Source: a bacterium (GTDB lineage Bacteria; Myxococcota; UBA727; JAUIJE01). Taken from it: 64,000 bases of DNA. Each line of letters begins with the position of its first letter. The stretch's first letter is position 1. Positions 21,174-56,142 of the stretch are shown here, one piece after another. The stretch is from contig JAUIJE010000002.1 of the NCBI GenBank assembly GCA_030431455.1, forward strand, positions 443,294-507,293, read 5' to 3'. The notes below the pieces were generated by a model that saw nothing but the letters and a program-made list of their open reading frames with translations, ran no database searches and had not been told where the DNA came from. The translations under genes and the position numbers were made by a program.

Positions 21174-23729
21174 TTATTGGGGAACGTTCGCGGGACAGAT
21201 GCTGTAGGCCGACGGGAACGGGAACGCTGCGGTGTCCTCGTCGATGCTGCGCAAAAACGCAGCCAGGTCGGCGACCTCGGCGCTGTCGAGCCCGAACACC
21301 GCGTTGCCCGCGGTGAGGTGCGCGGTGAACGCCCCGTTGGGGTCGAGCAGCTCCTCGAGGGTCTCGGCCGCCCCGTTGTGCAAATAGGGCGCGCCGAGGT
21401 TGATGCCGAGCAAGGAAGGCACATTGAAGCCGTCCACGCCCTGTGCGTTGCCGCCGTTTTGCCGGATCTCGGCCGCGCCTTGCCCGCTGGGTCCCGCGGC
21501 GTTGAACGTGCCCACGTCGCGGACCACGCAGGTGTGCCGCGCGGGCGGTCCATTGGCATCGTTGGCGAGCACGAACAGTTCGCTGGTGTCGGTGCTGACC
21601 ACGTGGTCGGCCCGCACGCTGCCCACATCGAGCACACCCACGTCGAGCAAGCTGAGCAAGCGCTCGTCGTTGCCCACCCCGCCGACCGGGTCGTAGTAGC
21701 GCTGCGACAAGGTCCAGAGCGGCCCCGCGTGGCAGCTGGTGCAAAGCCCCTCTTCGAACAGCGCGCGGCCGGCGACCGGGTCACCCGACTGGTGCACGCT
21801 TTTGCCCGTGGGGGTGCGCAGCTCGGCGATGTAGGCCTCGATGTCGTCCCAGTCCTCGGGGACGGCCCCGGATTGGGCCGCGGCCCGGGCGCTGCCGAGG
21901 TTGAAGCCGTCGATGGGATCGCCCACCCCGCCGGGGCCCACGAAGTCGATGCGCACCGCGGCGTTGGCGGTTCCATTGGCATTGAGGGCGGCGTCGCTCA
22001 CGATCGCACCGGTGCCGCCGGCCACCCCGCGGGTGTTGAGCTCGAAGTCGTGGACCTCATCGAAGATCGCGGTCCAGTTGAGCACCCGCTGGATCGCCCC
22101 GCCGGCGTTGAAGGTCGCGGAGGTATCCACAGTTTGGCGGGGGCCCGCGGGGAACACCCAGGTCACGTTGTCGGTGGTGCCAAAGGGGTGACAGCCCACG
22201 CACCCCACCCAGCCATTGGTCGACCACCGGGCGAGGCCGGTGTTGAAGAACTTCTGGCCCCGAAGCACCGCGATGTCGTGGGCGGTGGTGGGTTGGGGGG
22301 CGCTGGGCACGTCGCCGGTGGACACCTGGTTGGCGAGGTCGATGACGGTCACGCTGCGGGCGACCTCGTTGATGGTGTAAGCAGTGGCATTGCTGATGGC
22401 GATGCCGGTGGGCGAGGGCTGGGTGGGCAAGAACGACGCCCCGGTGGGGGAGCCGGCCACCGGCGGGTCTTGGTTGAAGTCGAGGCGCAGGACCATGTTG
22501 GACACCAGCGAGGTGATGTACGCGAACTGGGTGCCGTCCACGAACCGAATGTCACTGGGCACCGGCAAGAACCGCTTGGGCGCGGACAGGGGGTCGATCA
22601 GGGCGTTGAGGTTGAACGGGCCCTGCACCAGCTGCGAGGTGTTCACGTCGACGACGTGGAGCAGGCCCTGCAAGTTCTGGTGGAAGTCGGTGGTGCCTTC
22701 AAACGCTTCGGGGGAGGCCCCCACCGAGGTCAGGTAGAGCCGGCCGTTGTTGAGGGTGCAGCCGTACAGCTGGTTGGGGTAGGCGCCGGTCTCTTCGAAG
22801 CCGGGGATGCCGGACTGGTCGAGGGCGGGCAGCGCGTAGTCCTGCAGCTGGTGGGTGGCGGTGTTGATGCGGAAATAGCGGCCTGCGCGGGCATCGTCGG
22901 TGGCCTCGACACCGCCGAGCGCGGGCCGGGCGTAGAAGTCGGTCACGAAGAGCGCTTCATCGCTGTCGTCGGCGTCCGCGTCGTTGGTCATGCACAGGGC
23001 GAAGGGCGCGCCCCCGGTGTGGATGTCCTCGGTCTTGTCATAGCTCGCGGTGTCGATCACGCTCACGGTGCCGTCGGCCCAGTTGCTCACGTAGAGGGTC
23101 GCGCCGGTGGGGGACAGGGCCAGGCGCACGGGCTCTGATCCGACGAGCACGGTGTCGTCCACCGCGGCCGCGGCGCTGTCCGCGTGGGTGATTTTGCTCA
23201 CCGACGAGTCCGCGCGGTTGACCACGTAGAGGGTGGTCGCGTCGGGGGCGAAGATCACCGCGCTGGGTTCGTCGCCCACGGCCACGCGGGCCACTTCGGT
23301 CATGCCCGGGAGGGCAAAAATGGTCACGTCGTCGGTGCCCTTGTTCACCGCCGCGAGCAGGGACCCGTCTCGGTTGGTGGCGATGGGCCCGCCTTGGCTC
23401 GGATTGGTCAGCGGCTCGCCGTCCCCGTCACCATCGCCATCGCCATCGCCATCGCCATCCCCGTCCCCGTCGCCATCGCCATCGCCATCGCCATCTCCGT
23501 CCCCGTCTCCATCACCGTCACCATCGCCATCGCCATCCCCATCGCCGTCTCCGTCTCCGTCCCCGTCTCCGTCTCCATCGCCGTCTCCGTCTCCATCGCC
23601 GTCCCCATCGCCATCCCCGTCTCCGTCTCCGTCTCCATCGCCGGGACCGGTGTCCGCGGGGCACGCGGTGGTGCCGGCCACCGCCAGCGCCAAGCACAAA
23701 AACAACCAGGGCAATCGATGCAATACCAT
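21174..23729 (-). CDS. GD-linker lipoprotein: YVTN beta-propeller fused to di-haem cytochrome c peroxidase/MauG-like domain
   Basis: 851 residues. A lipoprotein signal ([10 protein letters not shown]) is followed by 37 Gly-Asp pairs, then a seven-bladed propeller region ([43 protein letters not shown]). The C-terminal half has two haem-binding motifs, CVGCH (about residue 510) and CTSCH (about residue 694), with a distal Met/His-rich region as in cytochrome c peroxidase/MauG proteins. Probably anchored in the outer membrane, the linker holding the domains away from it. The ATG at 23729 directly precedes the signal; a terminator follows the gene. Confidence 0.85.
23418..23642 (-). repeat. GD-coding hexamer tract, 37 units
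   Basis: 225 bases reading as 37 Gly-Asp pairs plus one Gly. Glycine codons vary (GGC, GGG, GGA, GGT) and aspartate uses GAT and GAC, so the DNA is a degenerate GGNGAY hexamer array rather than a pure microsatellite. Confidence 0.95.
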
Positions 23730-25606: not shown

Positions 25607-26452
25607 ATGGGGACAAAGACAAGCGTGGCCATGGTCGTGGTCGTCGGCATCGGCGCGGGGCTCGGTTGTTTTCCCGAGGCCGTGCCCACCGATTTGGTCG
25701 ACTTCCGCCGGCTGGAGGTCCGGGCCAACCCGGTGGGCATGGTGGGCCCCCTGGCGGGGACCACGGGGTTGTTTCCGCCCGGCCTGCGCGCGGACTTTTT
25801 TGAACCCCAGCAAGGTGACGGGTGCATGTTGCACCAGGCCTACCGCGGGTTGATCGGGCCGCTGGAGATGCCCCCGTTCGTGTTTCGGGGGTCCGATTGC
25901 GTCGAGCCGATCTTCGCCCCCACGGACAAGGAGGCGTTGCTGCTCGCGCTCCGCCACGAAAACGAGATCGCCTTCTTTCATGAGGGCGAGGTGGACCCGG
26001 TGGTCTCGGTGGCGTTGCCCCCGCTGGTCACAGATTTTGGCCCCGCGGACGTGGCGCTCTTTGAAGACCCCAACCTCACCGTGCCCGTGCCGGTGGTGGT
26101 CGAAGACGGCCAGGTGGTGCTGCCCGAGGCGCCGGTGTGGCTGTCGCTGGGCGTCGTGCCCGACGACGCCTTCGTGACGATTTGGGCATCAGACATCAAC
26201 CGCTTCGAGTCCCCGGACGTCGTCGAGCTCGAGCTGAACGGTGCCGGCAACGCCGTGCGCATCGCCATCGACGACATCTACGAAGACTCGTTGTTTGGCA
26301 CCGAGCGGCCGCGCCGCGCGTCGCTGTTCGAGGTGGACCTGGTCCTGGACCCGGCGGACGACGCGTGTCCCACCCTGGTCGGCGACGTGGCGTGTGTGCT
26401 CGAGGGCATTCACCACGTCGCGCCCCTGAAGGTCCCCGCGCCCCCGCCGTGA
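25607..26452 (+). CDS. Predicted lipoprotein, unknown function
   Basis: 281 residues. The signal region VAMVVVVGIGAGLGC ends in a lipobox-like GLGC (Cys21). The mature part is beta-rich and acidic, with six further Cys (DGCML, SDCVE, DACPT and DVACVLEG among them). A weak purine-rich stretch precedes the ATG. No recognised family; likely envelope protein. Confidence 0.72.
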   Translation: MGTKTSVAMVVVVGIGAGLGCFPEAVPTDLVDFRRLEVRANPVGMVGPLAGTTGLFPPGLRADFFEPQQGDGCMLHQAYRGLIGPLEMPPFVFRGSDCVEPIFAPTDKEALLLALRHENEIAFFHEGEVDPVVSVALPPLVTDFGPADVALFEDPNLTVPVPVVVEDGQVVLPEAPVWLSLGVVPDDAFVTIWASDINRFESPDVVELELNGAGNAVRIAIDDIYEDSLFGTERPRRASLFEVDLVLDPADDACPTLVGDVACVLEGIHHVAPLKVPAPPP

Positions 26453-26533
26453 CGCGGTGACGCGGAGCGCCCCCCCGACCCCTCGGGCCCGGCGCTCCCG
26501 CACCCCCCACCCCCCACCCCTCCGCGGGCCCGC

Positions 26534-26571
26534 GGGGGGCCGTGTCCCCAAGCCAGGAAAAACGGCCCCCC
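26534..26571 (+). terminator. Hairpin after the lipoprotein gene
   Basis: GGGGGGCCGT (26534-26543) pairs with ACGGCCCCCC (26562-26571) around an 18-nt loop. No T-run follows, so it could be a Rho-type or processing hairpin rather than an intrinsic terminator. It separates the lipoprotein from the S33 hydrolase promoter. Confidence 0.45.
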
Positions 26572-26595
26572 AGGCGAGATCTAGCCTTTGTTCTT

Positions 26596-26619
26596 TACAT
26601 ACATTCATGAATGTTTAAT
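26596..26619. promoter_or_regulatory. AcrR-like TetR operator
   Basis: TACATACATT-CATG-AATGTTTAAT, containing a perfect 14-bp palindrome ACATTCATGAATGT at 26601-26614. It has the architecture of the E. coli AcrR site (TACATACATT-N4-AATGTATGTA). It lies upstream of an operon that ends with an AcrR/TtgR-like tetR gene, so it is probably the autoregulatory operator. Confidence 0.65.
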
Positions 26620-26638
26620 TTGGCGGCGAACGTGGCGG

Positions 26639-26746
26639 ATGCGGCACGAACGCTGGAGGTGGCGGATGCGCCACGAACGCTGGAGGTGGCGGATGCGCCA
26701 CGAACGTTGGAGGTGGCGGGTGCGGCACAAACGCTTGTGGTGGTGG
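26639..26746 (+). repeat. 27-bp tandem repeat (four units) over the hydrolase start
   Basis: Units begin at 26639, 26666, 26693 and 26720 with few differences. Each encodes (M/V)RHERWRWR or a variant. Units end in GGAGG followed by TGGCGG and then ATG or GTG, so every repeat adds a ribosome-binding site and start codon. Confidence 0.9.
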
Positions 26747-27817
26747 GGCGGGCTTGTGGTGGCGGGGCTTTTGGCCGGGCCGCTCCTGGTCCGGGCGGCG
26801 CTGCAAGCCCAACGGGCCGAGGCGATGCACATCGCGGCGCCCCCGGGCATCGATGAATCGTCGTTTGTGACCATCGGCGGGGTGCCTCAGTGGATCAACG
26901 TGCGGGGGCACGACCGGCACAAGCCGTTCGTGCTCTACCTCGACGGGGGCCCGGGCAAGCCGTCCACCGCGTGGATGCACCTGCAACAGCTCGAGCTCGA
27001 GCGCCACGTGGTGATGGTCCACTGGGAGCAACGGGGGGCGGGCAAGTCATACTCCAGCGACATTGACCCGGCGACCATGACCATCGAGCGGTTCGTGCAG
27101 GACGGCATCGAGGTCATCGACCACCTGCGGCGCACCTACGGGGTGGAGAAGGTGGTGCTTTTGGGGCATAGCTGGGGCACGCAGCTGGGGGTGCTGATGG
27201 CCCAGCGCGCGCCGGAGAAGGTCGCGGCCTACATCGGGGTCGGCCAAGGGGTGGACATCGAAGAAGGTTGGCGGCGCACCCTCGCCGACATCGAGGCGCA
27301 GGCCCGCGCCGACGACAACCAGGAAGAGCTGGCGCTCATCGCGTCCTGGGGCGAGCCGCTTTCCCCCGACGACGTGGAGGAGCTGTTCTGGTTGATGGTC
27401 TCGCACGGGTGCGAGGTGCATGGCCAGACCGGCTACGGGTGGGTCATGGCCGAGATGCTGGTGTCGCCGATGTACAGCCTGGCCGACCACTGGCGGTGGG
27501 CGCAGGGCAATCGGTTCTCCGTCGAGCACATGCTCGACCAACTCAAAGCCCTCGACCTCCGCGCCCAGGTGCCGCGCCTCGATGTCCCCGTGCACCTTCT
27601 GCACGGCCGCTACGACTGCAACACCCACCACGCGGTGGCGCGGGAATGGTTCGAGGCGCTCGAGGCACCGGCGAAGTCGTTCACGTGGTTTGCGCGGTCT
27701 GCGCACAGCCTGCCCTTCGAGGAGCCCGCGCGGTTCCAGCAGGTGGTGGCCGACCTCGTCGAGGCCCTGCCGGAGGGGGTTGCGAGCCCGCGGTCCGTGC
27801 CGCAGAACGGAGGCTGA
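26666..27817 (+). CDS. S33-family alpha/beta hydrolase (proline-iminopeptidase-like), membrane-anchored
   Basis: 383 residues from the first ATG that has a GGAGG box. Alternatives are ATG 26639 (no such box), ATG 26693 and GTG 26720. A very basic N-terminus (RHERWRWR units) leads into a signal anchor (WGGLVVAGLLAGPLLV). The core shows oxyanion motif DGGPG (usually HGGPG), WEQRGAGKS, nucleophile GHSWG, then HGRYD and a C-terminal catalytic His in RSAHSLPF. Peptidase or esterase on the outer face of the inner membrane. TetR gene follows in the same operon. Confidence 0.87.
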   Translation: MRHERWRWRMRHERWRWRVRHKRLWWWGGLVVAGLLAGPLLVRAALQAQRAEAMHIAAPPGIDESSFVTIGGVPQWINVRGHDRHKPFVLYLDGGPGKPSTAWMHLQQLELERHVVMVHWEQRGAGKSYSSDIDPATMTIERFVQDGIEVIDHLRRTYGVEKVVLLGHSWGTQLGVLMAQRAPEKVAAYIGVGQGVDIEEGWRRTLADIEAQARADDNQEELALIASWGEPLSPDDVEELFWLMVSHGCEVHGQTGYGWVMAEMLVSPMYSLADHWRWAQGNRFSVEHMLDQLKALDLRAQVPRLDVPVHLLHGRYDCNTHHAVAREWFEALEAPAKSFTWFARSAHSLPFEEPARFQQVVADLVEALPEGVASPRSVPQNGG

Positions 27818-27829
27818 GGTGACGACGAG

Positions 27830-28438
27830 TTGCGCCGGACCAAAGAAGAGGCCGAACAGACCCGGGCGCGCATTGCCCAATGTGCTTTACAGGTGTTCGC
27901 CCGGCGCGGGTACGCGGCCACCCGGCTCGAAGAGGTCGCGGACGCAGCGGGGGTGACCCGCGGCGCGGTCTATTTTCACTTTCAGGACAAGGCGGGGCTT
28001 TTCCGCGGCGCCCTCGAAGCGCCCTCGGTGCGGCTGGCCCAAGCGATGGGGGCCGCCCTTTTGCAGGAGGCCCCCGCGGTCGAGCGTTTGGTGGGCTGGT
28101 TTGTGGCCGTGCTCGAGCTCGCCGAGACCGACGACGAGGTGCGGGCCGCGCTCGAGGTGCAATGGCTGCGCACCGAGGTGATCGAGGCCTTTGCCGACGA
28201 CATGGCGGCCAAAAAGACCCGCGCGCGCGATATGGTGAACAGCCTCGCGGCGCTGGTGCGCGGGGGGCAAGACGAAGGCGTGTTCGACCAGGGCGCGGAC
28301 CCGCAGGCCGCGGCCACGGGGTTGGTGTCGCTTCTGTTCGGCCTGTTGCAGGGCTGGCTGCTCGACGAGGACATCCCGCTGGGGGCCCGGGGGCGCGACG
28401 CGGTGCGCATCTATTTGCGGGGCTTGGCCCGCGACTGA
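27830..28438 (+). CDS. TetR-family repressor, AcrR/TtgR-like
   Basis: 202 residues from a TTG at 27830, 12 bases behind the hydrolase stop, with GAGG as ribosome-binding site. The N-terminus RRTKEEAEQTRARIAQCAL and the recognition helix GVTRGAVYFHFQDKAGLF match the AcrR/TtgR clade closely. The C-terminal ligand domain is typical in length. The operator-like site at 26596 resembles AcrR sites, so it probably represses its own operon and is released by a lipophilic ligand. Confidence 0.88.
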   Translation: MRRTKEEAEQTRARIAQCALQVFARRGYAATRLEEVADAAGVTRGAVYFHFQDKAGLFRGALEAPSVRLAQAMGAALLQEAPAVERLVGWFVAVLELAETDDEVRAALEVQWLRTEVIEAFADDMAAKKTRARDMVNSLAALVRGGQDEGVFDQGADPQAAATGLVSLLFGLLQGWLLDEDIPLGARGRDAVRIYLRGLARD

Positions 28439-28448
28439 GCGCCGGCGG

Positions 28449-29444
28449 TCAGCGGACGGTGACGCTCTCCACAGAATCGAGGGGGGTCACGTCGGTGCCG
28501 AGGCCCCCGCCCACGAGCAGGATCTCGTCGTTGTGGGGCACGAGCTGGTGGAAGATGCGCGGGGCTTCGGTGGGCCCGACCGCTTCCCAGTCGTCGCCGG
28601 CGTCGTTGAGCCGGTACAGCATGCTCTCGGCCGCGCTGAAGTAAAGCTCGCCATCCGCGCTGGTGGCGCCGCAGCCAAAGCCCCCGAACAGACCACCCCC
28701 GGGGGGCAACACCGGTCCGCGCGACCAATCGTCCTCGACCGGGTCGTACACCCAAGGCTCAACGGGGAACGCCCCGCTCAACATGCCGCCGAGCACATAC
28801 ACTTTGCCGTCGCGGTGGCCGGCGCAGTGGTCGCGCAGCTGGAAGGGCATGTCGTGCTCCTCCCACTGCAGCGGGGTCTGCTCGAGGTCGAGGGACATCC
28901 AGGTCTCGGAGTAGACCCCGGAGCCAGACTCGCCGTGGAGGGTCCAGCCCCCGACGACGTAGATCACGCCGTCCACCAGGGTGAGGCTGTGGGACGCGCG
29001 GGTGTCGGGCATCGCCGGCAGCGCCTCCCAGCTGTCGGTGTCGCGGTCGTAGCGGGCGAAGTCGTCGAGCGACCAGATCTCGATGGGCTCGTCCGCGGCG
29101 TTCATCGAGGTCATGCCGCCAAGGCGGTACAGCGCGCCGTCGTGCACAAACAGGGAGCCTTGTTGCACGGGTATGCCCGGATCGGTGAGCGCCTCCCACC
29201 GCGCGTCGGGGGTGTCGAGGTCGAGACGAATGAAGCGGGACAACGTGTGCTCGCGCGACTGGTCGTGGGCGCTGCCCACATGCCCGCCGTGCACATAGAG
29301 CTGTCCCTCGAAAACGGCCGCGGCCACCGCGTTGGCGGCCTCGGGAAGCGGCTCGTAGTCCGAGCCGACCTGGTCGGGGTCGATTCCGCACCCGACCCCG
29401 CACAACAAGGTGGCGATCCCCAAAGCCCACGTCCCACGATGCAT
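28449..29444 (-). CDS. Kelch-repeat beta-propeller lipoprotein
   Basis: 331 residues. Lipobox VGC (Cys19) after a short signal. Kelch blades are visible as GG pairs and W spacing: LYVHGGHVG, LYRLGGMTS, IYVVGGWTL, VYVLGGMLS and ILLVGGGLG, with intervening RYDRDTDSWEALPAMP units. Five or six blades form a propeller. AGGAGG precedes the ATG. Secreted and anchored; ligand unknown. Confidence 0.87.
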   Translation of the reverse strand: MHRGTWALGIATLLCGVGCGIDPDQVGSDYEPLPEAANAVAAAVFEGQLYVHGGHVGSAHDQSREHTLSRFIRLDLDTPDARWEALTDPGIPVQQGSLFVHDGALYRLGGMTSMNAADEPIEIWSLDDFARYDRDTDSWEALPAMPDTRASHSLTLVDGVIYVVGGWTLHGESGSGVYSETWMSLDLEQTPLQWEEHDMPFQLRDHCAGHRDGKVYVLGGMLSGAFPVEPWVYDPVEDDWSRGPVLPPGGGLFGGFGCGATSADGELYFSAAESMLYRLNDAGDDWEAVGPTEAPRIFHQLVPHNDEILLVGGGLGTDVTPLDSVESVTVR

Positions 29445-29566: not shown

Positions 29567-30940
29567 TCAGGGGCAAAAGGCGCTGTAGCTCCCGAGGTCG
29601 CACGCGAACAGGGCGCCGTTGGAGTGGATGTTGGGGGTGGGGTCGTCCATGGACGTGAGGTTCGGCAGGTTCAGCGTCTGCAAGCTGCCGTTGGTGTAGA
29701 CGCTCAGGCTCTTGAGGTGCTGGACCGAGGGCATCGAGATGCTCTGCAGTTCGGGGTTGGTGTCGACGGACAGCAGCCAGCCGGGCACGTCGACGAGAGA
29801 GGGCACATAGAGCTGGTGCAGGAACGCGTTCTGCTTGATGTAGAAGCGGTATTCGACGGTGTCGAGGGCGCCGATGTCCAAGGTGAGCAGCGCGGGGTTT
29901 TTCGCGATGAGAAAGTCGTAGGCGCTGGTCAAGGCGGGGAGCTGAATCTCCGCGAGGCTGGTGTTGCCCTTGCCGGTGTAGAGCTCGTCATACCCGATGG
30001 CGACCGCGTCGGTCACCGTCTGGAGGGCGGGCAACGACAAGCTCTGGAGCGCGTCGCAGTCGCCGACGGTCAGGTTCGCCAGCGAGGTGAGGTCGTTGAA
30101 GACGACCGCGCCCAATGCGCCGTTCGCGTCGAGCCACAAGTCGTCGAGGGCGGGGAGGTTCGGGGCGCTGATCGCGAGCAGCCCGTCGTTGTCCCGGATG
30201 ACCATGTCGGTGCCCACGCTTTGCAGCGCAGGGAAATCCACCGCCACGATGCCGCTGTTCTCGATGTGAATGCCGCCCCCGACCGCGGTCAGGGCACTCC
30301 AGGTCACGTCGAGCGCCCCGTCGATGCCATAGAACCGGATGTCGCCGCCGATGGACGCGAGGGCGGGAAGCTGGAGCGCGGTGAGCTCGTCGCTGGCGCT
30401 CTCGATCTCCAGATCTCCGCCCAGGGTCTGGAGCGCGGGCAACGACACCGACGTCAGTCCCTCGGCGTCAATCACCAGGTGCCCATCGAGGGCCGTGCAC
30501 CCGGCGATCGCCGCGACGTCGAACGAGTTCGTGATGACGTACGTCCCGGCAAACGCGGCGCACGCGTCTCCATCGCCGTCTCCATCCCCATCGCCATCTC
30601 CATCCCCGTCGCCATCTCCATCTCCATCGCCGTCTCCATCGCCGTCTCCATCTCCATCGCCATCTCCATCGCCGTCGCCATCGCCGCCCACGTCGACACA
30701 GAGGTCGCTGAAACAGCTCAGGCCCACATCGCAGGCCCCGCCCGCGGTGCACGGGCAACCCTCCGCCCCGATGGGGCAATCCCCGTCGCCATCGCCGTCG
30801 CCGTCGCCATCCCCGTCACCGTCGCCATCGCCCTGCGCGTCGGGGCCCGCGTCCTGCCCGCCGTCGTCCTCGCCGCCGGTACAGGACAGACAAAGGGACA
30901 ACGAGCCCACCAAGATCGCCAGCCGCACCGCGCGTTTCAT
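29567..30940 (-). CDS. GD-linker lipoprotein with receptor-L-domain-like repeats
   Basis: 457 residues. Signal MKRAVRLAILVGSLSLCLSC with lipobox (Cys20). Two GD tracts (9 and 20 pairs) flank a small Cys-rich module (CPCTAGGACDVGLSC). The C-terminal 310 residues are about twelve repeats of the pattern LPALQTLGGDLEI, an Ecm33/receptor-L-type right-handed beta-helix. The ATG at 30940 precedes the signal. Possibly adhesive or carbohydrate-binding. DUF1552 and DUF1592 genes lie upstream on the same strand, 73 bases away. Confidence 0.82.
   Translation of the reverse strand: MKRAVRLAILVGSLSLCLSCTGGEDDGGQDAGPDAQGDGDGDGDGDGDGDGDGDCPIGAEGCPCTAGGACDVGLSCFSDLCVDVGGDGDGDGDGDGDGDGDGDGDGDGDGDGDGDGDGDGDGDGDACAAFAGTYVITNSFDVAAIAGCTALDGHLVIDAEGLTSVSLPALQTLGGDLEIESASDELTALQLPALASIGGDIRFYGIDGALDVTWSALTAVGGGIHIENSGIVAVDFPALQSVGTDMVIRDNDGLLAISAPNLPALDDLWLDANGALGAVVFNDLTSLANLTVGDCDALQSLSLPALQTVTDAVAIGYDELYTGKGNTSLAEIQLPALTSAYDFLIAKNPALLTLDIGALDTVEYRFYIKQNAFLHQLYVPSLVDVPGWLLSVDTNPELQSISMPSVQHLKSLSVYTNGSLQTLNLPNLTSMDDPTPNIHSNGALFACDLGSYSAFCP
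30566..30685 (-). repeat. GD-coding tract, 20 units
   Basis: 120 bases encoding 20 Gly-Asp pairs; a second tract of 9 pairs lies at 30779-30832 in the same gene. Codons are mixed. Confidence 0.95.
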
Positions 30941-34780: not shown

Positions 34781-34875
34781 CCCCCGCCCGCAGGTCGCCG
34801 TCTGCACAGCCGACGTGGACTGCGCTTCGGCCGCGCACAGCCGACGGTGGCGGCGGCTGTGCAGCGATGGGCAAG
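34781..34875. repeat. 95-bp direct repeat, copy 1
   Basis: Nearly identical to 34916-35010 (about four mismatches, offset 135). It contains a hairpin GCACAGCCG (34835-34843) / CGGCTGTGC (34854-34862). The whole 34571-35042 stretch (472 bases) has no convincing gene: the readings within it are Pro/Arg/Ala-rich shadows of the repeats. Confidence 0.85.
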
Positions 34876-34915
34876 GGCGTCGGGGGGCGTGACCGTCGGG
34901 GGGCGGTACCACCGT

Positions 34916-35010
34916 CCCCCGCCCGCAGGTCGCCGCCTGCACAGCCGACGTGGACTGCGCTTCGGCCGTGCACAGCCGACGGTGGCGGCGGCTGTGCGGC
35001 GATGGACAAG
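34916..35010. repeat. 95-bp direct repeat, copy 2
   Basis: Second copy, 135 bases downstream of copy 1. It keeps the same hairpin (34970-34978 / 34989-34997), including a G-to-A-type change outside the stem. Together the pair lies upstream of the DUF1592 gene and could include its promoter or a small structured RNA, but no promoter is recognisable. Confidence 0.85.
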
Positions 35011-35042
35011 ACGGTGGGCAGGCCGCCCCGGGGTCGCCGCGG

Positions 35043-40190: not shown

Positions 40191-41027
40191 ATGAGGGCAC
40201 AGTGGGCGGGGCTGATGTGGGGGGCGATGGTGTGGGCGGCGGTGGCCGGTTGCCCCAATGACCCGGCGGACCCGGTGGCCGACGCGGGCACCGGTGACGG
40301 CGACGGCGATGGGGACGGCGATGGTGACGGGGACGGCGATGGTGATGGTGACGGGGACGGCGATGGTGATGGGGACGGTGATGGTGATGGTGATGGTGAT
40401 GGGGATTGTCCCAACGCGGCGGGCGGCGGTTTGTGGGGGCACGACTTTGACCGGTCGTGCGGCGCCGCGTCCGATTGCGCCACCGTGCCGGTGCAGCGCG
40501 ACTGTTGCGGCACGCAGACTCATTTTGGGGTGGCCAGCGCCGCGGCAGACGCGCTGTCCGGGTGGGCCGCGGGCTGCGCGGTCCATTTTCCCGACTGCGA
40601 CTGCGCGCCCGAGCTCCCCTTCGCCGACGACCTGAGCCAGCCGGCGGGGTTCGGCGACGAGGCGGGGGTGATGTGCTTGAGCGGGCTTTGTGTGTCGACG
40701 TTCGCCGACCCCGGCCCGGCTTGGCCGATGTGTTTTGACGTGGCGGGCGCACAGGCCCACGTCGACCGGTTCTGTTCGGTGGCCGATGACTGCCACATCG
40801 AGCGCGTATACCGCGGGTGTTGTGGCGAGGAGCACGCGTTGGGCGTGAGCGCGGCGGGCGCGCCGGTGGCGCGCTTGTGGTCGGACAGCTGCGACGACCA
40901 GGCCATATGCGACTGCATCCCCGACCACATCGCCGCGGACGATGGCTCCGAGGGCCCGCTGGATGCGACCGGCCTGACCGTGGTGTGCGACCAAAACGTC
41001 TGCACCACGAGCTTCACCGCCAACTGA
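40191..41027 (+). CDS. GD-linker cysteine-rich lipoprotein
   Basis: 278 residues. Lipobox VAGC (Cys22), a 19-pair GD linker at residues 35-72, and a mature part with about twenty Cys in repeated sets (RSCGAASDCATVPVQRDCCG, FCSVADDCHIERVYRGCCG) in two related halves. Disulphide-rich extracellular protein, anchored in the envelope; no known family. GGAGCG precedes the ATG; a longer upstream reading is an artefact. Confidence 0.8.
   Translation: MRAQWAGLMWGAMVWAAVAGCPNDPADPVADAGTGDGDGDGDGDGDGDGDGDGDGDGDGDGDGDGDGDGDGDCPNAAGGGLWGHDFDRSCGAASDCATVPVQRDCCGTQTHFGVASAAADALSGWAAGCAVHFPDCDCAPELPFADDLSQPAGFGDEAGVMCLSGLCVSTFADPGPAWPMCFDVAGAQAHVDRFCSVADDCHIERVYRGCCGEEHALGVSAAGAPVARLWSDSCDDQAICDCIPDHIAADDGSEGPLDATGLTVVCDQNVCTTSFTAN
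40293..40406 (+). repeat. GD-coding tract, 19 units
   Basis: 114 bases encoding 19 Gly-Asp pairs with mixed GGC/GGG/GGT and GAT/GAC codons. Confidence 0.95.
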
Positions 41028-41086: not shown

Positions 41087-42931
41087 CTACAGCTTCAGGA
41101 CGTTCATGCCGCCGGGGTAGAGGTAGCTGGTGGCCGGGGCGTAGCCGTAGGTCATGATCGAAAAGGTGTTGCCGGTGGGGCTCTCGATGACGTGGCTGCC
41201 CACGGTGAGCTCGACCCGGGCCGTGCCCCACCCGGTGCTGCCGATGGGGTTGGCCAAGGTCACCGGCGCCCCGTCGAGGAGGATCTCCGCGTCGATCGGT
41301 CCAGAGACATTGAGCCAGTTGCTGGTGTAGCTGTCCGGGGTGAAGAACACATAGTCGGTGCGCAGCTGGGCCACGGGGATGAGCAGCCCCATGGCGGGAT
41401 CGCCCTCTTGGTTTTCCGTGGGCGGGTTTTCGTACGGCCAGAGCGCGCCGGGCAGCATCTGGGTGATCGACAGCCGCGCCCCGGCCACGGTGGCTTCAAA
41501 ATCTTGGTCGGTCTCGAACTGGAAGACCTCGCCCGCTTGCAAGGTCACGTCCCCGACCACTGGGGGATCGAAGGTGACCACGGTGTCGTCGGCGTCGGCG
41601 AGCAGCCGGTAGACGGCGGTGTCGCGGCCCCCGTCGGTGGGGTGTTCGGGCGCGGTGGCGATGATGCGTTGGCCCCAGGTCTCGAGGGGGAAGAGCATCT
41701 CCTCGTTGTGGTCGCAGTACAGGTTGCCCGCGGGAAACGCGATGCAGGTGTGGCCGCCGAACACCGCGAGGGGTTCTTGGTTGGGGGTGGTGATCATGGT
41801 GCCGGTGGGGTCGGCGTCGAGCCCGTGGCAGACGGTCCCGCCCGCGGCGGTGGCCACACAGTCGGTGTCCACCGCGCCGTCGACGATGCCGAGCACCTGG
41901 AGCACGTCGCCCCGGTCGAGGGTGACGGTGAGCAGCTCGCCGGGGTCGAGGGCGGCGACACCGGAGCCGCTTTGGGTCCGGGTCGACGAGGTCACTTGGA
42001 CCACGGTGCCGTCGACGAGCCCGACCACGGTGAAGAACCCGGGGAAGCGGTCGGCGAGCGCGCTGGGGCTGCCCCAGGCGGGGCCCGAGGAGACCATGTA
42101 GTTGCCGGTGAGCACGTGTTCGGGGAGGAGCAGGCTGGCGTCGTTGGTGAACGACGTAATGTTGCTGAGCTCGAAGTGCACGGGGTTGTATTGGTAGACG
42201 GCGATGGGCACGTCGCTCTCGATTTCGACCCCGGCGCCGTCGACGAGGGTGGATTGGGTGCTCTTGAACACCTCGTTGTCGATGGGCAAGTAGAAGACGT
42301 CGGTGCTGCCGGGTTGGACCACGGTCGAGCCGTAATCGATGCCATTTTTGCTGACGCTGACGCTGGCGGTGGGGTTGTCCGGCGGGTTGCCGATGACCAC
42401 CGCGAAGTCGGTGTCGAACACGGGGTCGAGGAGCGCGTTGTTGGTGGCCACGGCCATGAACCGACAGCCGAGGTTGGACAGGATCAGCTCGGCGAACTCG
42501 CACCGCGGGGTGCACGTCCCGCTGCCGTAACAAATCTCGCTGCCCAGGCAGGGGGCTTCCACGTCGTAGGCCGAGCCCATGTCATTGCACAAAAACCGTT
42601 GCTCATCGTCGCAGGTGGCAGCCCCCGGGGTGCAGAAGGTGTCGCCGTCCCCGTCGCCATCGCCATCGCCATCCCCATCTCCGTCCCCATCTCCATCTCC
42701 ATCGCCGTCTCCGTCCCCATCCCCATCGCCGTCGCCATCGCCATCGCCGTCCCCGGCACAATCGGGGTCGGGGTTGGGGCAGTTGTTGTCGCAGATGCCA
42801 TCGCCGTACAGGCCGCTCTCCTCACAAGGGTCACCGGTGCCGGCATCGGGCGTCACCGTCGGCGGGCTGGGGCAGCCGGCGGCGGCGACGACGAGGAGGG
42901 CCAAGACCAAGCGAAACGTCACGGTGTGCAT
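41087..42931 (-). CDS. GD-linker lipoprotein with IgGFc-binding-like domain
   Basis: 614 residues. Lipobox AAGC (Cys21). An N-terminal Cys-rich stretch (DPCEESGLYGDGICDNNC) precedes a 19-pair GD linker (DNA 42641-42754), then another Cys-rich link (FCTPGAATCDDEQRFLC). The C-terminal 400 residues carry the IgGFc_binding (vWF-type-repeat) pattern: PLAVFGGHTCIAFPAGN, NEEMLFPLETWGQRII and VTLQAGEVFQFETD. Such domains in Myxococcota are probably adhesins. The ATG at 42931 is the start at the signal. Confidence 0.82.
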   Translation of the reverse strand: MHTVTFRLVLALLVVAAAGCPSPPTVTPDAGTGDPCEESGLYGDGICDNNCPNPDPDCAGDGDGDGDGDGDGDGDGDGDGDGDGDGDGDGDGDGDGDTFCTPGAATCDDEQRFLCNDMGSAYDVEAPCLGSEICYGSGTCTPRCEFAELILSNLGCRFMAVATNNALLDPVFDTDFAVVIGNPPDNPTASVSVSKNGIDYGSTVVQPGSTDVFYLPIDNEVFKSTQSTLVDGAGVEIESDVPIAVYQYNPVHFELSNITSFTNDASLLLPEHVLTGNYMVSSGPAWGSPSALADRFPGFFTVVGLVDGTVVQVTSSTRTQSGSGVAALDPGELLTVTLDRGDVLQVLGIVDGAVDTDCVATAAGGTVCHGLDADPTGTMITTPNQEPLAVFGGHTCIAFPAGNLYCDHNEEMLFPLETWGQRIIATAPEHPTDGGRDTAVYRLLADADDTVVTFDPPVVGDVTLQAGEVFQFETDQDFEATVAGARLSITQMLPGALWPYENPPTENQEGDPAMGLLIPVAQLRTDYVFFTPDSYTSNWLNVSGPIDAEILLDGAPVTLANPIGSTGWGTARVELTVGSHVIESPTGNTFSIMTYGYAPATSYLYPGGMNVLKL

Positions 42932-53599: not shown

Positions 53600-56142
53600 T
53601 GGTCACCCGGCTGGCGGCGGGTCTTCTGGGCCTGGTGTGGTTTTGCGGCTGTGGCTTATTCGACCCCCTCGGCAACACCACCCGGTTGATGGTGGTGGTC
53701 GACCCGGGCGACACCGGGGCGGAGCAGATTCAGGTCCGGGTGCTCGGTGACGGCGGCCTGCTCGACGAGAGCGCCCGGGTGCCCGAACAACCCGCGGGGG
53801 CGTTGGCCCCCGAGACCTCCTATACATTGGCCATGCCCGACGATTGGGCAGATCTCGAACTGACCTTCGCGGTGGACGGGTGGCGGGGCGACGACATCGT
53901 GGCCACGGCCCGGCGCGACGACATCACCCTGTCCGCGGGGCGTCTGGTGCGGGAGGCGTTCGCCCTCGGGGCCCCCTGCGGCGATGGCCAGCTCACCGGG
54001 GACGAAGCCTGCGACGACGGCAACACCGACGCGGGAGACGGCTGCGACGCGGGCTGCGCCATCGAGGAGGGCGCGGTGTGCACGACCCCGGGCACGCCCT
54101 GCACCTTCAGCTGTGGCGATGGGTCGTTGCAGGCAGGGGAGGGCTGCGACGACGGCAACGGCGTGGACGCGGACGGGTGCACGGGCTGTGTGCTCGACGA
54201 GGGGTATGTGTGCCCGGTGCCGGGGGCGGCGTGTGAGATCGCGTGCGGCAACGGGGCGGTGGACGGAGACGAAGCGTGCGACGACGGCAACGGGGTTGAC
54301 GCGGACGGGTGCACGGGCTGCGTGCTCGACGAGGGGTATGTGTGCCCGGTGCCGGGGGCGGCGTGTGAGATCGCCTGCGGCAACGGGGCGGTGGACGGGG
54401 ACGAAGCGTGCGACGACGGCAACGGGGTCGACGCAGACGGATGCACGGGCTGTGTGCTCGACGAGGGGTATGTGTGCCCGGTGCCGGGGGCGGCGTGTGA
54501 GGTCGCCTGCGGCAACGGGGCGGTGGACGCAGACGAAGAGTGCGACGACGGCAACATCGCGGACGCGGACGGCTGCAGCGGGGCGTGCGCGATTGAGCCG
54601 GGGTTCACCTGCATCAATGTGCCTGCACCGTCGACGTGTTTTCGGTGCGGTGATGGCTTGCTCGCCGCGGGGCACGAGGCGTGCGACGACGGCAACCTCG
54701 ACAACGATGACGGGTGCAGCGCGGCGTGTGAAATCGAGGACCGGGGGGTGTGCAGGGAAGACACCGAACCCTCGGTGTGCGGCCGGTGCGGCAACGGGGT
54801 CATCGAAGACGCGGTGGACGAAGAATGCGACGACATCGCCGACACCGGGGACTGCGCGATGTGTCGGCTCGCGGTGTGCGGCGATGGGTATGTGAACGCC
54901 TTCGGAAACAATGGAGGGGCACGCGAAACGTGTGACGACGGGCCCGACAACGCGTATTTGGCCACCTGCAGCGACACCTGTGTGGCCGCCACGTGTGGCG
55001 ATGGTCTGGTCCAAGCGGGCGAGGTCTGTGACAGCGCGGGGGCCGAGGGCTGCGGCACCGGATGCTTGGCGGTCAGCCCCGAATACCGCTGTGCGGGCAT
55101 GCCCAGCATCTGCCGCTCGTCGGCCCAGTCCGTCGACGGGTCGGCCTGCGCGGGGGTCCCCGCCGACGTCGGGGGCGTGAACACCTGTCTCAACGATGTG
55201 ATCGCCAACGCCCCGAGCGGGTTTTTTCTCACCGCGGTGTGGCTCGGTCCCGGGGTGTACCACGGGGACGTCGACGTCGACAGGGGCGCGTTGCAGCTGG
55301 TGGGTGAGGTGGACGTCGACGGCACGCCGCTGGCCACCTTGGAAGGCGCCGTCGGCAACGGCACCCCGACGCTGCGGCTGTCGCCCAAGGTGCTCGCCCC
55401 CGTGGGCCTGTACCACGTGAAGGTCACGGGGGCCGGTCCGGGAGAAGCGTTGGTGCACATCGAGAGCAACGTCAGCACGGGGTACATCTCCCCCGCGGAC
55501 ATCGGCCCCAGCGACGGGGTCGGGGTGCGCGTGACCGGGGGCGTCCAGGCGGTGATCCAGCGCAGCACCATTCACGACAACGCCGAGGGCGGGGTTGAGA
55601 TCCTGAGCGACAACGGGTCGCAGCACCAGGTGTTCGTCAATGTGATCCGGGGCAACGGTTCGCCCACGTCGGCGGTGGGCGGGGTGGTGATCGACGGCGG
55701 GGCCAATGTCAATTACAACAGCATCTTCGACAACCAATCCGCGGCGACCCGAACCTTGAACGCGGCCACCGTCGACCTCGGCAGCGGGGTCTACTGCGGG
55801 GCCGGCACCAACTTGGTGGGCAACATCGTATGGGACAACACCGGGGCCACCGCGGTCGAGGTGGACTGTCCCAACATCGCGTTCAGCGTGGTCGAGGGAT
55901 ACGGCGACCTGGTCGTGGCCCGGGGCAGCGAGTACGGCGAAGCCAACGTGGACGTGGACCCGCTCATCGACGCCGATGGCCGACCCGGACCCGGCTCGAT
56001 TTGTCTCGATTACGTGAACGGGTTCGCCACCGCCTTTCACAACCCGAAGTTCTCCGTGCGCAATCTGCCCAAGCCTCACCTGGGCTCGGGCCAGAACGAC
56101 TGCGGGGCCTACGAGTCCGGTTTTTATACCCCCGCCCCGTGA
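53599..56142 (+). CDS. Cys-rich-repeat/right-handed-beta-helix surface protein
   Basis: 847 residues. Signal MVTRLAAGLLGLVWFCGC may be a lipoprotein signal (ambiguous lipobox). After about 130 residues come eight or so Myxococcus cysteine-rich repeats (CGNGAVDGDEACDDGN with CTGCVLDEGYVCPVPG). Three of these are almost identical 132-bp units at 54145-54540. Residues 530-847 are a right-handed parallel beta-helix (IQRSTIHDNAEGGVEIL, NYNSIFDNQ). Surface protein, perhaps an adhesin or polysaccharide-binding protein. Translationally coupled to the TPR gene. Confidence 0.85.
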   Translation: MVTRLAAGLLGLVWFCGCGLFDPLGNTTRLMVVVDPGDTGAEQIQVRVLGDGGLLDESARVPEQPAGALAPETSYTLAMPDDWADLELTFAVDGWRGDDIVATARRDDITLSAGRLVREAFALGAPCGDGQLTGDEACDDGNTDAGDGCDAGCAIEEGAVCTTPGTPCTFSCGDGSLQAGEGCDDGNGVDADGCTGCVLDEGYVCPVPGAACEIACGNGAVDGDEACDDGNGVDADGCTGCVLDEGYVCPVPGAACEIACGNGAVDGDEACDDGNGVDADGCTGCVLDEGYVCPVPGAACEVACGNGAVDADEECDDGNIADADGCSGACAIEPGFTCINVPAPSTCFRCGDGLLAAGHEACDDGNLDNDDGCSAACEIEDRGVCREDTEPSVCGRCGNGVIEDAVDEECDDIADTGDCAMCRLAVCGDGYVNAFGNNGGARETCDDGPDNAYLATCSDTCVAATCGDGLVQAGEVCDSAGAEGCGTGCLAVSPEYRCAGMPSICRSSAQSVDGSACAGVPADVGGVNTCLNDVIANAPSGFFLTAVWLGPGVYHGDVDVDRGALQLVGEVDVDGTPLATLEGAVGNGTPTLRLSPKVLAPVGLYHVKVTGAGPGEALVHIESNVSTGYISPADIGPSDGVGVRVTGGVQAVIQRSTIHDNAEGGVEILSDNGSQHQVFVNVIRGNGSPTSAVGGVVIDGGANVNYNSIFDNQSAATRTLNAATVDLGSGVYCGAGTNLVGNIVWDNTGATAVEVDCPNIAFSVVEGYGDLVVARGSEYGEANVDVDPLIDADGRPGPGSICLDYVNGFATAFHNPKFSVRNLPKPHLGSGQNDCGAYESGFYTPAP
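54145..54540 (+). repeat. Three nearly identical 132-bp units in the Cys-rich gene
   Basis: Units begin at 54145, 54277 and 54409. Each codes 44 residues from CDDGNGVDADGCTGC to AVDGDEA. Differences are few and mostly synonymous (for example GTT to GTC), indicating recent duplication or gene conversion. Confidence 0.9.

Follow-up and report, generated by a model that had tools for sequence, protein, structure and literature searches.

When the ribosome-binding site and start codon of a gene are copied head to tail, does the gene gain several working starts, or does a single start go on doing most of the work? The question is raised by a 27-bp tandem repeat at the 5' end of an alpha/beta hydrolase gene in the window, the 64,000-nt stretch of bacterial DNA analyzed here. 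Coordinates are positions in the window, and its features lie on the + strand (Table 1). The reading favored here, with a probability of roughly 0.6, is that a leader and the first nine codons expanded by three 27-nt units through slippage, that the GTG at 26720 is mostly used, and that the effect is modest at most.

Table 1. Features of the hydrolase locus and of a second array in another genome (window positions unless a different locus is named)
Feature	Position	Strand	Remarks
AcrR/TetR-type operator-like site	26596..26619	+	TACATACATTCATGAATGTTTAAT; resembles the E. coli acrAB AcrR site
Short leader	26620..26638	+	between operator-like site and first ATG
Alpha/beta hydrolase gene	26639..27817	+	Pfam Hydrolase_4 ("serine aminopeptidase S33"), E 3.8e-16
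Unit 1	26639..26665	+	ATG start without GGAGG; MRHERWRWR
Unit 2	26666..26692	+	ATG start, GGAGG-N6; predicted perfect 6-bp hairpin; MRHERWRWR
Unit 3	26693..26719	+	ATG start, GGAGG-N6; predicted perfect 6-bp hairpin; MRHERWRWR
Unit 4	26720..26746	+	GTG start, GGAGG-N6; VRHKRLWWW; proposed original start
Perfect hairpins, units 2 and 3 (predicted)	26659-26674, 26686-26701		GTGGCG-GATG-CGCCAC; start codon in tetraloop
TetR-family repressor gene	27830..28438	+	TTG start; TetR_N, E 2.8e-15
15-bp x 4.1 array, subtilase gene of G025	L179 1167-1228 = L166 567-628 (G025:C42)		GGAGG-TCACGC-GTG unit, in frame

The array was detected with TRF at 26632-26743 (period 27, 4.1 copies, 90% matches, score 175), and its four near-identical 27-mers are beyond chance. 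The sequence-only reading had described a repeat that multiplies the Shine–Dalgarno (SD) sequence and start codon in frame, in four units beginning at 26639, 26666, 26693, and 26720. It had placed GGAGG six bases before the last three of these starts, and the whole repeat upstream of a hydrophobic segment preceded by a basic stretch. All of this is borne out. Units 1–3 differ pairwise by 1–2 bases at two variable sites, always synonymously, and unit 4 differs from them by 5–7 bases and five residues. The hydrolase frame runs through all four units without a stop. Every added unit raises the charge of the basic stretch ahead of the hydrophobic segment by about +3 (four Arg and one Glu). The leader, CGAACG-TGGCGG, resembles a unit minus the seven bases CTGGAGG and was read by eye as a truncated unit. 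Because the leader lacks these bases the first ATG is left without an SD; the sequence before ATG 26639 is GGCGGCGAACGTGGCGG, in which GGAGG does not occur.

The base differences also bear on whether the copy number is an assembly error. The genome is in 28 contigs and a search of the assembly for an SSU rRNA gene, with its anti-SD, detected none, so repeat regions may be imperfect. However, the differences tell the four units apart, which a collapsed or stuttered single unit would not allow, and an error of this kind is extremely improbable.

The hydrolase has a hydrophobic N-terminal segment followed by its catalytic domain. The catalytic Ser, Asp, and His columns (S151, D299, and H329, numbered from the GTG) are invariant in 10 homologs, and judged by sequence the protein is an S33 alpha/beta hydrolase. 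Twelve nucleotides after its TGA, in the same reading frame, begins a gene for a TetR-family repressor. The operator-like site on the other side of the array contains a perfect palindrome, ACATTCATGAATGT (26601-26614), of which the assembly holds no second copy even with one mismatch allowed. Compared with the E. coli acrAB site for AcrR, TACATACATTTGTGAATGTATGTA (PMC10597343), 26596-26619 has 6 mismatches in 24 positions and is the best match on both strands of the 767-kb contig (next best, 8). With a TetR_N protein encoded alongside and an AcrR-like candidate operator upstream, the hydrolase gene may be under TetR/AcrR-type regulation. The likeness to acrAB/AcrR lies in a TetR-family gene adjoining the target and in the similarity of the putative operator; the difference lies in the target, which is an alpha/beta hydrolase here and an efflux pump there. 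A scan of 26400-28700 for a consensus sigma-70 promoter found none. TTTACA at 26594 with TTTAAT at 26614 was considered as a promoter and dropped, the two being 14 nt apart.

The array lies directly downstream of the operator-like site, and its near-palindromic units (GTGGCG-GATG-CGCCAC, an inverted repeat that is perfect in units 2 and 3) could be tandem regulator sites at the level of DNA rather than translation modules. The TetR-type site, however, is a different sequence and lies upstream, and the junction 14-mer GGAGGTGGCGGRTG has three occurrences in the 7.72-Mb assembly, every one of them in the array. A role as a DNA element is very unlikely.

Orthologs give a view of the locus without the repeat. 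An alignment-query search of genome contigs kept 80 loci, among them L074 from Alphaproteobacteria bacterium MAG NORP194, which holds the nearest ortholog pair found. Its hydrolase is 43% identical (tblastn, 1.5e-99), as is its TetR protein (43%, 1.5e-43), which is transcribed divergently from the adjoining hydrolase. A TetR match at E 1e-3 was present in only 2 of 101 loci, the window's own and L074 (flanks of about 1.5–2.5 kb). Between the hydrolase and TetR genes, at 2409-2432, L074 has an operator-like site, TACATACATACAAGAATGTATATA, that is 4–5 mismatches from the AcrR site, and 26596-26619 is the best match to this site too in the 767-kb contig (5 mismatches; next best, 7). AcrR-like putative operators and a TetR–hydrolase pair are common to the window genome and L074, with a different gene orientation, and it is possible that the TetR–hydrolase–operator set was transferred between phyla.

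Downstream of the operator-like site, L074 has an SD and then a single ATG, at 2450. The L074 site ends 17 nt before that ATG, and the corresponding gap in the window measures 19 nt for ATG 26639 and 100 nt for GTG 26720. Counting residues up to the DGGP motif gives 72 for the L074 start and, in the window, 74 for the GTG, 83 for ATG 26693, 92 for ATG 26666, and 101 for ATG 26639 (the last by adding nine). Removing three units (81 nt) matches both L074 distances, and a single initiation region has therefore probably expanded by three units. GTG 26720 is proposed as the original start because the ortholog geometry points there.

Six further orthologs (G126–G131) also favor the GTG. By an ungapped count, all six have an ATG preceded by AGGAGG that is 3 residues upstream of the position equivalent to the GTG, and in the same comparison ATG 26693 lies 9 residues upstream of the GTG. 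The start regions of these six were read by hand; they are apparently among the 8 of 107 homolog loci dropped from the automated scan for an absent motif or absent upstream sequence. From 100 loci, the window's own excluded, 65 homologs have an SD-supported start at 45–125 residues, the most upstream being used where there were several. Their distance to [HD]GGP has a median of 79 and quartiles of 75 and 87, with 27 of them nearest 74, 23 nearest 83, 7 nearest 92, and 8 nearest 101. The median falls between the GTG (74) and ATG 26693 (83), which counts against the GTG as the main start; the wider-family start distance is neutral between the two. A single-sequence protein scan of genome contigs gave 23 candidate stretches and no relatives, and elsewhere in the phylum identity reached 41% at most. 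When the order of G097 was searched for further close orthologs, 1 of 101 genomes had one, G097 itself. L081, a Granulicella homolog, carries a 15-bp x 3.9 repeat (PAQRA) directly behind what looks like its signal peptide, with the SD not repeated.

The gene could instead start at ATG 26639, with the repeats as an evolved basic, Trp-rich N-terminal extension and the internal GGAGG motifs as incidental codons. The frame is open across all units, the differences among units 1–3 are purely synonymous, as coding constraint would give, and the leader from the operator is short, with ATG 26639 at nearly the same distance from it as the L074 start. The last two of these points also count against the GTG as the main start. 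ATG 26639 has no SD, however, and orthologs are without such an extension. The codon score of units 1–3 is poor (-9.3 bits over 27 codons, with -9.3 or less in 1.8% of 1,637 internal windows), although Arg/Trp-rich content alone pulls the score down and the comparison is with internal windows only. A start at ATG 26639 seems quite improbable.

Folding predictions distinguish the starts further. Each start codon is predicted to lie in the loop of a hairpin, GUGGCG-GAUG-CGCCAC, with an energy of -11.7 kcal/mol at starts 2 and 3, where it is perfect, versus -7.3 at starts 1 and 4, which have one mismatch. In 25 folding settings, combining assumed transcript starts and 3' ends, the GTG had the lowest predicted opening cost among the three SD-bearing starts every time (25/25). 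Among all four starts it was lowest in 13 settings and ATG 26639 in 12, the rank of the latter depending on the assumed transcript start. The sequence-only reading had also spoken of several equal starts, and this part is not supported: start 1 lacks GGAGG, starts 2 and 3 are in predicted perfect hairpins, and the GTG is predicted to open cheapest among the GGAGG starts. Translation probably still begins mainly at the GTG, with the upstream ATGs supplying smaller amounts of longer protein. Folding across differing unit numbers showed no clear steady gain; the zero-unit version opens most easily in the predicted series, yet its SD is lost.

In the favored reading, that of one expanded leader, each added unit would bring a whole initiation module in frame (SD, 6-nt spacer, start codon, and nine basic or aromatic codons), so that the mRNA would carry four candidate starts, not one. 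Most product would probably begin at GTG 26720, the counterpart of the original start. The upstream ATGs would yield minor products whose basic stretch is longer by 9, 18, or 27 residues, and ribosomes initiating upstream would unfold the downstream hairpins. Slippage of the usual minisatellite kind, in a lineage rich in repeats, probably created the array and keeps it, and the effect on output would be modest at most. Besides the ortholog geometry and the opening costs, this reading draws on the poor codon score of units 1–3, on the repeat-rich contig, and on an engineered array of which E. coli DH5alpha used the gene-proximal RBS alone (PMC9723656).

The array resembles a minisatellite (VNTR) at a 5' coding end in being an in-frame run of near-identical head-to-tail units (90% matches) whose number could change; it differs in that the unit holds a full initiation module and in being known from one genome. 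Phase-variable CAAT repeats of the lic1A type also lie at a gene start and involve more than one start codon. Those tetranucleotides shift the frame and act as an on/off switch, whereas 27 is a multiple of three and gives no frame switch.

The contig holding the window (C16; 767,511 bases) is repeat-rich, with 278 TRF rows, 230 of them with a period of 9 or more and no fewer than 1.9 copies and 82 with a period of 18 or more and no fewer than 3 copies; the other 27 contigs of the assembly were covered by pattern searches only. A loose filter found 15 chains in this contig in which SD and start are repeated in frame with an open reading frame of at least 80 codons, and this array alone among the 15 has GGAGG before every chain member. 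Another pair carries GGAGG/AGGAG, with a first member that reads just 3 codons, and the remaining chains are mostly low-complexity 18–48-bp linker arrays, one being a 132-bp repeat inside an open reading frame. The array is unusual for its contig in unit content and position. Elsewhere in the window there are long GAC/GAT GGN hexamer arrays that can code for Asp-Gly repeats on one strand (23416-23643, 30565-30842, 40293-40406, and 42642-42764), a 132 bp x 3.3 tandem repeat inside an open reading frame (54145-54582), and a 135 bp x 1.8 tandem repeat (34781-35023).

Pattern searches of the phylum for two SD+start modules, with an exact GGAGG-N6-RTG required, covered 97 and 195 genomes. The counts were often near those of a reversed-pattern control, so the pattern alone says little, and the searches may have missed other arrays. 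Tandem-looking matches were picked by eye among the matches listed, giving 16 places (17 stretches, with the G025 place included twice), and among these only G025 has an in-frame SD+start array where a long gene apparently begins. G112 (L172) had no qualifying TRF row; the duplication is out of frame in G048, G081, and G070; and G032, G083, and the remaining inspected places look internal, out of frame, or short. Separately, three genomes of one genus carry a 23-bp duplication of SD and ATG (L163 301-337, L164 301-337, and L165 391-427, the last as reverse complement). It makes the 8-codon leaders MSSEGGER, MRREGGER, and MRSEGGER, each closed by a TGA that overlaps the start codon (ATG) of a DUF3501 gene (Pfam match on L163); these are candidates for a coupled leader peptide born by duplication.

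The G025 array precedes MSRVAALLVAAAGTANA, which appears to be a subtilase signal peptide (Peptidase_S8, 4.8e-12), and the second unit of the array has GCG in place of GTG. Because the subtilase frame is also open for 140 codons further upstream, its start is placed by way of the signal peptide. Common to the two arrays is that the repeated residues are basic and lie ahead of a hydrophobic stretch.

The same layout has been engineered. Zhang et al. 2022 (PMC9723656) built leaders of 1–6 tandem RBS+start modules, with which the GFP level in Bacillus licheniformis rose by as much as 5-fold and each RBS gave its own protein band; the start codons were required, and SD–SD distances of 15–21 nt were effective among the 12–24 nt tried. 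The array lowered output in E. coli DH5alpha, where the gene-proximal RBS alone was used, and gave two bands in E. coli BL21(DE3), from the nearest and farthest RBS. The authors anticipate that the design will not work in Gram-negative bacteria. Both the engineered leader and the window array place head-to-tail copies of SD and start at the beginning of a single gene, contain hairpins within their units, have GTG or ATG as start codons, and give proteins of stepped length (predicted in the window). The engineered leader is synthetic and was used in Bacillus, Corynebacterium, and E. coli, whereas the window array is natural and from another phylum. The hairpin loop holds the SD in the former and the start codon in the latter, and the SD–SD distance of 27 nt in the window is outside the effective range, into which the 15-nt period of the G025 array does fall. 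Repeated SD and start in frame upstream of one open reading frame are present here, with GGAGG-N6 in 3 of 4 units. No natural counterpart of a tandem RBS+start leader was found in the literature searched, a coverage outside which most subscription journals fall.

These comparisons raise the prospect of a working multi-start leader, in which every SD-bearing start is used and the unit number sets the dose or membrane targeting of the hydrolase, much as the sequence-only reading proposed. The three identical GGAGG-N6 modules, the band-per-RBS behavior and GFP gain of the engineered leaders in B. licheniformis, and the second natural in-frame array before the secreted subtilase of G025 are in keeping with it. 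The period of 27, however, is outside both the distances tried and those effective in the synthetic design (PMC9723656), and in E. coli DH5alpha the proximal RBS alone was used, with a fall in output, and the authors expect no benefit in Gram-negatives. Strong hairpins are predicted at starts 2 and 3, and a scan of 99 homolog start regions, the window's own among them, found a tandem repeat only here and in L081. A working multi-start leader is unlikely. A broader version, which is distinctly doubtful, would be a natural form of the engineered leader: slippage of the whole module would act as a heritable dial, each step adding a start and a charge of +3 ahead of the hydrophobic segment of an exported enzyme, and such a dial would have arisen at least twice in the phylum, in the hydrolase and in the G025 subtilase.

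If its starts are used, the array would be a natural example of a layout otherwise found, in the literature searched, only as a synthetic part. It would also come from a phylum taken to be Gram-negative, where the makers of the synthetic leader foresaw no help (PMC9723656). If the last start alone is used, the locus would be a clean case of harmless expansion between an operator and its gene. With their periods of 27 nt and 15 nt, the two natural arrays make it possible to test directly which of several identical, closely spaced starts a ribosome selects.
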